64,000 bases of DNA. Origin: Thermosynechococcaceae cyanobacterium Okahandja. Lineage in GTDB: Bacteria > Cyanobacteriota > Cyanobacteriia > Thermosynechococcales > Thermosynechococcaceae. The DNA lies in the NCBI GenBank assembly GCA_041530395.1, contig CP136945.1, positions 2,356,001-2,420,000 on the forward strand, written 5' to 3'. The first letter of the stretch is position 1. The number at the start of each line of letters is the position of its first letter. Shown here one piece after another: positions 49,146 through 52,457 of the stretch. The position numbers were made by a program, and so were the translations under genes. Under the pieces are notes generated by a model. It searched no databases. It was given only the letters and a program-made list of their open reading frames with translations, and was not told where the DNA came from.

Positions 49146-49460
49146 ATGAATAAAGCTGAGTTAGTGGATGCGGTGTTTGGGCGCGCCCACAGTGCCAACA
49201 ATGTCACCAAGAAACAAGTGGAAGCCATTATCTCCGCAACAGTGGAAGAAATTATGGAGGCGGTTTCTAAAGGCGATAAGGTAACATTGGTGGGGTTTGG
49301 TGCTTTTGAACCGCGGCAGCGGAAGGCGCGGGAAGGTCGGAATCCCAAAACAAAGGAAAAAATGCAAATTCCGGCCACCACGGTTCCTGCCTTTTCGGCG
49401 GGTAAACTGTTCAAGGAAAAAGTAGCCCCGCCCGCTCCGGCAAAAGGGAAGAAAAAATAG
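49146..49460 (+). CDS. HU-family DNA-binding protein
   Basis: 104 residues from ATG 49146 with GGAG 8 bp upstream. MNKAELVDAV, VTKKQVEAIISATVEEI, GDKVTLVGFGAFEPRQRKAREGRNPKTKEKMQIPATTVPAFSAGKLFKEKV follow the HU/IHF fold, with the DNA-intercalating arm and its Arg/Pro tip. The C-terminal tail (APPAPAKGKKK) is longer and more basic than in enterobacterial HU. The last two codons are AAA AAA before TAG, and the -1 frame continues into the downstream aminotransferase. Confidence 0.95.
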   Translation: MNKAELVDAVFGRAHSANNVTKKQVEAIISATVEEIMEAVSKGDKVTLVGFGAFEPRQRKAREGRNPKTKEKMQIPATTVPAFSAGKLFKEKVAPPAPAKGKKK

Positions 49461-49552
49461 GTACCCAGCCACCGCGGCATGGTGGCAATGTTGTCTGGGC
49501 AGCAGCGATCGCCCGGTGTCAGCCTCAGGAACTGCTGGATTTTTCCGCCAGC

Positions 49553-50539
49553 TTGAATCCTTTGGGGCCACCTGCCTCTGTGGTTGCTGCCCTACAGCGG
49601 GCGATTCCCACCATTCGCGATTATCCCGACCCCAATTGCACGACCCTTGTCCAAGCACTGGCCGCCACCTACGGGCTTGCGCCGGAGACTCTCTTAGTGG
49701 GCAACGGTGCCGCAGAACTGTTGACCTGGATCGGGCGCGACTGTGCCACCTGTCGGCGGGTGTACCTAATTAGTCCGTACTTTCAGGACTATGGGCGTGC
49801 ACTGCGAGCCTTTGCCGCACCCATGGCGGCCATTCCCCTTGAGCGGGTGCGCCATGGCCTAGAGCCGCTAGCGGCACTGCTGCAACCCGATGATGCCGTC
49901 ATTGTCAATAATCCCCATAATCCAACGGGGCATTTGTGGCGGCGATCGGCGCTGTTCCCCCTGTTAGAGACGGGGGCAACAGTGGTGGTGGATGAAGCCT
50001 TTATGGACTTTTTGGTGCCCGCTAGCAGTCAAACCCTCTTACCCCAAGTGTCGCAGTACTCCAATTTAATTGTGCTGCGATCGCTGACGAAGTTTTATGG
50101 CTTGGCCGGGCTGCGCTTGGGCTATGCCGTCAGTCAGCCGGAACGCTTGCACCGCTGGCGACAGTGGCGCGATCCGTGGAGTGTCAATACCCTTGCCCTT
50201 GTGGCCGGTACCACAGCCCTTGGCGATCGCCCCTTTCAGGAGCAAACGTGGCAATGGTTGGCACCCGCCCGTGCTGCACTGCAAACAGCCCTAGAGCAAA
50301 TTCCCGGCTTAAGGGTTATCGGTCCTAGCCATGGCAACTTTCTTTTAGTCGCTACCGCAGACTCGGTGTTGCCCCTGCAACGCTACCTCCTCGAGCGCCA
50401 TCGGCTGTTGATCCGCGATTGCCTTAGCTTTCCGGAACTGGGGGAGCGCTACTTCCGGGTGGCGGTGCGGCAGCCTTGGGAAAACCAACAGCTGCTAACC
50501 GCGTTGGCGGATTACGTGGGCGTGTCTCAACAGCGCTGA
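49553..50539 (+). CDS. CobD/HisC-like class I aminotransferase (threonine-phosphate decarboxylase type)
   Basis: 328 residues from TTG 49553, but the true N-terminus almost certainly lies upstream: the same frame encodes HGGNVVWAAAIA (from 49478) and DFSASLNPLGPP, the conserved start of CobD-like enzymes, and the frame is open back to within the HU gene with no ATG, GTG or TTG. PLP-enzyme features: NNPHNPTG, VVDEAFMDF, and the Schiff-base lysine in RSLTKFYGLAGLRLGY. CobD makes aminopropanol phosphate for the cobalamin side chain; HisC-like transamination is the alternative. It follows HU on the same strand. Confidence 0.82.
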   Translation: MNPLGPPASVVAALQRAIPTIRDYPDPNCTTLVQALAATYGLAPETLLVGNGAAELLTWIGRDCATCRRVYLISPYFQDYGRALRAFAAPMAAIPLERVRHGLEPLAALLQPDDAVIVNNPHNPTGHLWRRSALFPLLETGATVVVDEAFMDFLVPASSQTLLPQVSQYSNLIVLRSLTKFYGLAGLRLGYAVSQPERLHRWRQWRDPWSVNTLALVAGTTALGDRPFQEQTWQWLAPARAALQTALEQIPGLRVIGPSHGNFLLVATADSVLPLQRYLLERHRLLIRDCLSFPELGERYFRVAVRQPWENQQLLTALADYVGVSQQR

Positions 50540-50547
50540 ACGTGCCG

Positions 50548-51552
50548 TTAGGGGTTCCCCAAGAGGGTGCGTACGGCCTTGCGAATGGCGACAGCATCGG
50601 CGGGGTGTTGCCGTGGATTGCCAGCGCGGTGCCCCCAGATCGAATCCAGCACCTGAAACCGGGCATTGGGAATGAGGGCCGCTTCGGCAGCGCAGTCCTC
50701 GGGCGTAAAGTAAAGGTCGGTACTGGCGGCCATGACAAGGGTTTGAGCCGTAATCTGTCCCAAGGCGGCGGCGTAGTTGCCATCGGGGCGGAGTTGCCCC
50801 ACATCACAGGCCAGCCACGTGTCAATCATGGCCAGCAAATCGTGGGGGTCACGGCGGCGATAGTTGGCTTCCCAGCCCCGCTCGATGTAGTCCCTCAGGG
50901 AGGTATAACCCAAGTCCCGGTAGAGGGCGTGGCGATAAAAGGCTTGGGAGGCGGCCCAACTGGCATAGATATAGCTAAAGGCACGGTAGCCCCGCTCGGG
51001 AATGGCTTGAAAGCGTTGCCCATCCCAAGCCGGATCCGCCGTCAAGGCTGCCCGTAAACTTTCCAAGAAAAGCTGGTTATGGGGTGTGGTGCGGGCGGTA
51101 CCACACAGGGCGGCTAACCGCTGGACGCGATCGCCAAAGTAAACCCCCCAATAGTAGGCCTGCTGCGCCCCCATTGACCAACCGTAGATGAGGGCTAGCT
51201 CCTCAATGCCAAGGACCTCCTCCAGCAATTGGGACTGGGCACGGATATTGTCCCAATGGCTAAACCAGAACCCGGTTTCCCGCAGACCACAGTGGCGATC
51301 GTTACTGGGGGAGGTGGATAGGCCATTCCCCAGCATATTGACAATCACAATAAACCACTGCTCTGGGTCAAGGATGCCCTCCGGCTGAATGAGCCAATCA
51401 ATATCCCCGTGCTGGGCACCGTAGGAGGTGGGGTAGAGAATGGCATTATTGCCGCGATATTCCCCATAGGTGGCATAGACCAGTCTTAGGGTGGGCAGCG
51501 TCACGCCGCAGGCAAGAGGAAAATCAGGGGTTTCCCAAACACTAACCCTCAT
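50548..51552 (-). CDS. MetX-like alpha/beta hydrolase (homoserine acetyltransferase family)
   Basis: 334 residues from ATG 51552; the open frame runs further upstream inside the desaturase gene. LRLVYATYGEYRGNNAILYPTSYG, NMLGNGLSTSP, the nucleophile elbow IYGWSMGAQQAYYWG, a late acidic STDLYFTPED and WGHRAGNP with the catalytic His are MetX-family features. MetX proper acetylates homoserine, but the relaxed sequence suggests a hydrolase or other acyltransferase. Its ATG overlaps the desaturase TGA (ATGA), indicating a two-gene operon. Confidence 0.8.
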   Translation of the reverse strand: MRVSVWETPDFPLACGVTLPTLRLVYATYGEYRGNNAILYPTSYGAQHGDIDWLIQPEGILDPEQWFIVIVNMLGNGLSTSPSNDRHCGLRETGFWFSHWDNIRAQSQLLEEVLGIEELALIYGWSMGAQQAYYWGVYFGDRVQRLAALCGTARTTPHNQLFLESLRAALTADPAWDGQRFQAIPERGYRAFSYIYASWAASQAFYRHALYRDLGYTSLRDYIERGWEANYRRRDPHDLLAMIDTWLACDVGQLRPDGNYAAALGQITAQTLVMAASTDLYFTPEDCAAEAALIPNARFQVLDSIWGHRAGNPRQHPADAVAIRKAVRTLLGNP

Positions 51553-52457
51553 GCCGTACCAAAGCGAGCCACAATTTGGCGGTGGACGTTGAGATAGCCG
51601 CTGACGCAGTGCTGGAGATGGGGTTTGAGGAGGGTATGGGCAGCCCCCAAGGCATGGAAGGGAATGGAGGGGTACAGATGGTGCTCGGCATGGTAGGGCA
51701 TATTCCACATCAGGAGGCGCACCGGCCAGAGGGTAAGCGTCGTCCGCGTATTGGTGAGACCATTGCTATCCTCACTACAGTGGGTGTGCTCCGCCAGCAA
51801 AATGAAGCGCAGTACCGGCTGTCCCACCGCCAAGGGCAACACCCACCCCACCAGAATCCACGGATACCCAAGTACAACGGAGAGTACTCCGGCCACCCCA
51901 TACACAAAAAGCTGCCAGCGAGCAGAACGGATCACCTCGGGGCGGGCCTCGGCACTAATGTAAGGGTAGCCCTCTAACTCACCCCGCACCAAGTTGGCAA
52001 AGGTTTGAATTTTGCCCCACCACCAGGGCAGGCCGCTCAGTTCCCACAGGTACTCTGACCAGTTCGTGGGTTTGGGATCAGCGAGTTCCGGGTCTTTGCC
52101 GGGAAGTTGAGTGTAGCGATGGTGCCACTTGTGGTAACGGCGATAAAAGTCACTGTTGTAAAAGCAGAGTACCCCTGCCACCCATGCCACCGTATCATTG
52201 AGGCGCTGACTGGCAAAAGCAGTGCGGTGGGAGCACTCGTGCAGAGCCGCAAAGAGGGTTGCCAAGCTGGTGCCGTAAAGCAGAAGGGCTGGAATGGCTA
52301 ACCACCAGCGATGTCCCAGTTGGGTTAACCAAACACTGCCACTGAGGAGCAGGATGCCCAAATGCAGGGCGAGTTGCCGCAGCCCAGCCCAGTTGGAGCG
52401 CTGGTTTAGGGTTTGCAGTGTCGCCGTATCAATGAGGGGAGGCGCAAACGTGGTCAT
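51549..52457 (-). CDS. Membrane fatty-acid desaturase / hydroxylase family di-iron protein
   Basis: 302 residues, four membrane segments, and the three histidine clusters of membrane di-iron oxygenases: HECSHRTA, HKWHHRYT and HAEHHLYP, plus an additional EHTHC. The family includes acyl-lipid desaturases and carotenoid hydroxylases and ketolases (CrtR, CrtW); the HECSH and HxxHH spacing does not let me choose. Substrate is in the thylakoid or plasma membrane. Start from ATG 52457. Coupled with the MetX-like gene through ATGA. Confidence 0.83.
   Translation of the reverse strand: MTTFAPPLIDTATLQTLNQRSNWAGLRQLALHLGILLLSGSVWLTQLGHRWWLAIPALLLYGTSLATLFAALHECSHRTAFASQRLNDTVAWVAGVLCFYNSDFYRRYHKWHHRYTQLPGKDPELADPKPTNWSEYLWELSGLPWWWGKIQTFANLVRGELEGYPYISAEARPEVIRSARWQLFVYGVAGVLSVVLGYPWILVGWVLPLAVGQPVLRFILLAEHTHCSEDSNGLTNTRTTLTLWPVRLLMWNMPYHAEHHLYPSIPFHALGAAHTLLKPHLQHCVSGYLNVHRQIVARFGTA

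Follow-up and report, generated by a model that had tools for sequence, protein, structure and literature searches.

In the window, which here means the whole 64,000-nucleotide stretch of Thermosynechococcaceae cyanobacterium Okahandja that was analyzed (contig CP136945.1, positions 2,356,001 to 2,420,000), a cobD gene that follows an HU gene appears to have lost its canonical start codon by substitution. On balance, we favor the reading that it is a working gene translated through termination-reinitiation from HU, with the AUA codon that overlaps the HU stop as its most likely start (Table 1). The cobD frame lies in −1 relative to HU and is open from 49406 to its stop at 50537–50539; upstream of TTG 49553, back to the in-frame stop at 49403, it contains no ATG, GTG, or TTG, though the sequences encoding the conserved HGGN and DFSAS motifs are intact. 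The preliminary description of this DNA had reported this absence, together with the coordinates, the −1 frame, the ATAG overlap (ATA at 49457–49459), the A6 run, and HGGN from 49478, and all of these were right on rechecking.

Table 1. Features of the HU–cobD locus, in positions of the window
Feature	Position	Strand	Remarks
HU-family DNA-binding protein gene	49146..49460	+	ATG to TAG (MNKAEL...KGKKK), upstream partner; PF00216, E 9.9e-31
HU stop	TAG 49458-49460	+	HU 3' end reads GGG AAG AAA AAA TAG
TAA, in-frame stop 5' of the cobD frame, within HU	49403..49405	+	
AAGGGA, Shine–Dalgarno-like	49444..49449	+	7 nt before ATA 49457; by inspection
A6 run, HU codons AAA AAA	49452..49457	+	Possible but weak slippage site
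ATA, most likely cobD start (inferred)	49457..49459	+	Overlaps HU stop as ATAG
CAG where the canonical start was apparently lost	49466..49468	+	G003 has TTG; six further relatives have ATG
cobD, threonine-phosphate decarboxylase frame	49457..50539	+	360 aa from ATA; TIGR01140 above cut-off; 1lc5, E 6.7e-62
HGGN, conserved N-terminal motif	49478..49489	+	
TTG, earliest in-frame canonical start	49553..49555	+	Starting there removes HGGN and DFSAS

The enzyme is predicted to be CobD rather than HisC, with decarboxylase activity likewise predicted: the protein scores 313.7 bits against TIGR01140 (cut-off 290.55), as compared with 208 bits against the hisC model, which is below the cut-off of 276.55. 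The first half of the earlier label "CobD/HisC-like" is thereby retained and the second is not. Its best relative among solved structures is L-threonine-O-3-phosphate decarboxylase (1lc5), in which an HGGN lines up with the one at 49478. In five of the genomes searched (G013, G018, G038, G045, and G056) the CobD match is split in two, inside a single open frame, around query residues 123–147, which suggests an insertion in some cyanobacterial CobD proteins. Elsewhere in the window, the minus-strand ORFs 50548–51708 and 51549–52457 overlap by 160 bases, and the GTG start of the former may have been set too far upstream; GCGATCGC, which we take to be the HIP1 palindrome of cyanobacteria, occurs 95 times in the window, as compared with 1.19 occurrences expected from shuffles.

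Comparison within the genus indicates that a canonical start of cobD is ancestral and was then lost by substitution in the window. The window's genome (G000; a single contig of 2.8 Mb, completeness 100) was compared with ten same-genus relatives (2.1–2.7 Mb), and all ten have a canonical start at this junction: ATG in six (L003–L008) and TTG in four (L002, L009–L011). These starts lie 12 or 15 nt before HGG, five bases past the HU stop in seven relatives (L002–L008) and one base past it in three (L009–L011). The nearest relative, G003 (80% protein identity), aligns without a gap from the HU stop to HGGN; by eye, its junction reads ATA GGT GCC TTG CCT CCG CGC CAT and that of the window ATA GGT ACC CAG CCA CCG CGG CAT, so that the start differs by two adjacent substitutions (TTG to CAG). 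An indel or sequence error is unlikely because the alignment is free of gaps and the start differs by these substitutions. An error of sequencing or assembly at the start, one of the options in the preliminary description, is thus the least credible of the explanations considered here. The species is represented by only one genome—a scan of genome contigs for a second isolate returned none, giving four distant loci—but that genome is a complete single contig, and a canonical start is equally absent in five other cyanobacteria.

The junction itself is otherwise unremarkable. The preliminary description had drawn attention to its A6 run and ATAG overlap; set beside the related genomes, the loss of the start is real, but A6 and ATAG are not special, being the Lys-Lys-stop end of HU, and AAAAAATAG (the HU end including the ATA) is also present in eight of the ten same-genus relatives. 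The AAGGGA upstream of the ATA is also simply HU coding sequence. Among the 11 genomes of the genus, only those of the window and G003 have the ATA in a frame open to HGGN and cobD; in the other relatives this frame is closed by a TGA (six) or the ATA lies in a different frame (three).

To place this junction in context, 236 cobD loci were gathered from cyanobacteria, comprising 58 genomes of relatives, 11 of the genus, a class-wide draw (252 genomes at least 90% complete, 225 of them matching), four named loci, added families, and 100 short stretches. Dropping five loci without the motif and 49 repeats (identical over 90 bases) left 182 distinct junctions. The loci were not sampled at random but are the best-scoring rows of each search, and family f16, once it had yielded its first case, was oversampled on purpose; the counts are therefore not prevalences. 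HU adjacency was defined as an HU sequence motif within 300 nt upstream of cobD, and the start scored was the nearest one that preceded HGG by at least 9 nt without lying deeper inside HU than a short overlap. A canonical start is found in the expected stretch in 175 of the 182 junctions, which places the absence in the window beyond chance; one junction has an ATG only directly before HGG, and six, including the window, have none.

HU lies within 300 nt upstream of cobD in 139 of the 182 junctions, and start codon choice differs sharply between these and the remainder. The HU-adjacent genes start with TTG (78), ATG (27), or GTG (27), with six lacking a canonical start and one ambiguous (L020); the 43 others start with ATG (39), GTG (3), or TTG (1). 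ATG is thus used in 27/139 HU-adjacent junctions, as compared with 39/43 elsewhere (Fisher, p 1.6e-17), and the contrast persists after similar sequences are merged (p 1.0e-9 with 113 clusters, 4.6e-8 with 86, and 6.6e-4 with 41). One of the 43 nonadjacent loci, L124, has only 56 nt of upstream sequence; dropping it gives 27/139 versus 38/42 (p 3.9e-17). An earlier, less sensitive HU detector, which missed many HU genes, gave ATG in 15/58 adjacent and 37/68 other junctions (p 0.0019). The HU genes of the HU-adjacent loci themselves start with ATG in 137 of 138 cases and with GTG in the remaining one, a further locus being cut; since HU almost always has its ATG, these loci are not simply poor sequence. 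Taken together, HU-adjacent cobD genes of cyanobacteria appear to have weak starts in general. Absence of a start is not by itself significantly associated with HU adjacency (6/139 versus 0/43, p 0.34).

The six junctions without a canonical start offer differing codons, given here by position from HGG: ATA at −21 in the window, ATC at −15 in G121, ATC at −21 in G169, CTG at −18 in G272, and ATT at −24 with CTG at −36 in G305; G262, from a fragmented genome 82% complete, has none of ATA, ATC, ATT, or CTG. In G169 and G262 there are TTG codons further upstream, inside HU, while the window, G121, G272, and G305 have no canonical codon back to the in-frame stop. At least four of these losses are independent, because those same four junctions each have same-genus relatives with canonical starts. 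In G121 the change can be seen directly (ATC AAT CGT CCT, versus ATG AAC CGT CCT in the same-genus G157); G272 has CAG at −30 from HGG, a place occupied by TTG in L147 and L151 of the same genus; and in G305 the stretch between HU and cobD is shorter than in its relatives. A further junction, L020/L155 (G043), has as its sole canonical start between the HU stop and HGG an ATG that immediately precedes HGG; at −12, a position used as the start in 12 other junctions, it has GTC. This is possibly a seventh lost start.

HU is generally an abundant protein. If cobD is translated by coupled reinitiation, ribosomes ending HU would restart on cobD without a canonical start codon; the AUA at 49457 would offer them, as AUAG with the HU stop, the same four-base arrangement as the common AUGA overlap, and even weak restarting would be sufficient, as HU is presumably made in large excess over the B12 enzyme. 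We infer each element of this scheme—the coupling of initiation, AUA as the codon, and HU abundance as the explanation for the tolerance of the loss. According to excerpts of PMC10666635, reinitiation is most efficient at overlaps, with −4 nt the commonest distance in Escherichia coli and H. volcanii, and is almost abolished in reporter work by a gap of about 20 nt. With ATA as its start, the window would have such a short overlap. Where an HU-adjacent cobD has a start, the median distance between it and the HU stop is 20.5 nt; given that reinitiation fades by about 20 nt, many HU–cobD pairs would lie at or beyond the edge of its range. In one locus, L144 (G266), the only canonical cobD start is a TTGA overlapping the HU stop by four bases, 69 nt before HGG.

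An AUA start by reinitiation, one of the options first proposed for this locus, stands as the best reading, with AUA as the most likely codon; AUA itself is unproven, near-cognates not being enriched over background. In-frame ATA, ATC, ATT, or CTG codons occur between the HU stop and HGG in 59 of 132 control junctions that have a canonical start, and in four of the six start-less junctions (five of six if the stop-overlapping ATA is counted), which is no clear excess; near-cognates in the start-less junctions consequently prove little. In 16 loci an ATA overlaps the HU stop and stands in an open frame with cobD; the 15 other than the window also have a canonical start. The G262 junction, which offers no near-cognate of these four kinds, counts against a near-cognate reading, and is more easily accommodated if reinitiation takes place at another noncanonical codon near the HU stop, such as the CAG at 49466, with HU termination, and not the codon, positioning the ribosome. 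The seven relatives with the same frame start exactly at that site, and CAG likewise stands in G272 where its relatives have TTG. CAG, however, mismatches the initiator anticodon at two positions, and codons with two such mismatches initiate near background. We regard initiation at CAG or a similar codon as unlikely, though it is the foremost of the alternatives to AUA.

The A6 run directly before the UAG would permit a different route into cobD: Lys-tRNA could slip back one base and re-pair fully, and the −1 frame, which is open into cobD, would yield an HU–CobD fusion protein. All six start-less junctions have a cobD frame that is open into HU, as compared with 65/132 of those with a start (p 0.028). 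This openness, however, tracks the relative frame of the two genes: among frame-2 pairs that have a start, 36 of 43 are also open, and frame 2 accounts for five of the six start-less pairs (versus 43/132, p 0.019), an excess that we tentatively put down to the oversampled family f16. Other observations also count against a fusion. The 0-frame heptamer, G AAA AAA, is not a standard X XXY YYZ slippery site; A6 follows from the lysine codons of HU; the TGA in frame in six same-genus relatives would end a −1 product; and no RNA structure beyond that of shuffles was found at or downstream of the junction (z 0.04; z 0.75). The frame of cobD relative to HU varies among species (classes of 66, 49, and 24 among the 139), and a frameshift fusion was rejected as a shared device on this ground. 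Little support remains for the −1 frameshift fusion raised in the preliminary description, and we consider it improbable for the window.

Whether the gene is still functional bears on two further readings. Omega between G000 and G003 comes to 0.103 for the stretch of 25 codons that runs from HGGN to TTG 49553 and to 0.107 for the remaining codons, values that average over the periods preceding and following the loss; the 25 leading codons of the conserved part thus appear as constrained as the remainder, omega being no proof of translation today. Translation from TTG 49553, which would give a 328-residue CobD, is very improbable in this light. TTG 49553 is the first canonical codon in frame and the expected choice of a gene caller, but a start there cuts off the constrained codons together with HGGN and DFSAS. 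That such a start would delete conserved residues, as had been claimed, is confirmed: HGG is present in 182/182 sequences and DFSAS in 177/182—both favored by the search motif itself—and HGGN is also found in 1lc5.

Decay of the gene, with no useful CobD made or only a trace, is somewhat easier to entertain but still decidedly improbable. Loss of the start codon is a classic first step, and the 5' 25 codons carry two residue changes specific to G000 and none specific to G003, as compared with 12 and 21 elsewhere (p 0.15); the two changes could be early decay. Against this, the frame is full length without a stop, omega is about 0.1 in both parts, and in five other lineages the cobD frame is open yet has no canonical start. 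A search of G000 for two other genes of the cobamide pathway, cbiB (TIGR00380) and cobS (PF02654), found both above cut-off, and no second cobD that could take over appears among the listed matches in this genome, which has a single match at E <= 1e-60, the next listed being 32% identical (E 7.6e-17). Judged from these data, the window's cobD looks intact and is probably working. The −1 fusion, the truncated TTG start, and decay are all less likely than termination-reinitiation from HU.

What deserves follow-up is the wider pattern of weak starts, and of their repeated loss, in HU-adjacent cobD genes. A search of the open-licence literature found no paper on the HU–cobD junction. We tentatively suggest that the HU–cobD pair may be a conserved expression device of cyanobacteria, in which ribosomes that come off the abundant HU message supply cobD and the start is kept weak and repeatedly lost, initiation then falling on near-cognate or unrelated codons according to position. 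In that case, a set of conserved genes that follow very highly translated ones may have no recognizable start and be misannotated, and gene callers may trim the N-terminus off such genes. A position at which canonical starts have been lost repeatedly would also be a natural series on the importance of the start codon when ribosomes arrive by coupling.

Several known systems bear comparison with this locus. The window's protein is homologous over its full length, including HGGN, to CobD as represented by TIGR01140 and PDB 1lc5, and differs in that its gene has no canonical start. Among genes with near-cognate starts, infC of E. coli reportedly begins at AUU. In excerpts of PMC13009471, AUA starts are reported from ribosome profiling for Staphylococcus aureus infC and ccpN; AUA reporters of ccpN and citZ gave about 10% of AUG in poor medium, and ccpN up to 30% in rich medium. 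An ATT start in E. coli is cited at only 0.3% of AUG in the excerpted text of PMC10666635. The S. aureus near-cognate starts (infC AUA, ccpN AUA, citZ AUA, and cvfC1 AUU) resemble the case proposed here in that each, as excerpted from PMC13009471, concerns a conserved protein and a third-position near-cognate of AUG. They differ, in the same excerpts, in that they come from profiling and reporters, with an extended Shine–Dalgarno sequence in infC, ccpN, and cvfC1, whereas the window's AUA is a predicted start and lies in a stop–start overlap. That overlap within four bases is shared with AUGA-type termination-reinitiation, which in the excerpted parts of PMC10666635 uses canonical starts, whereas the window would use AUA.
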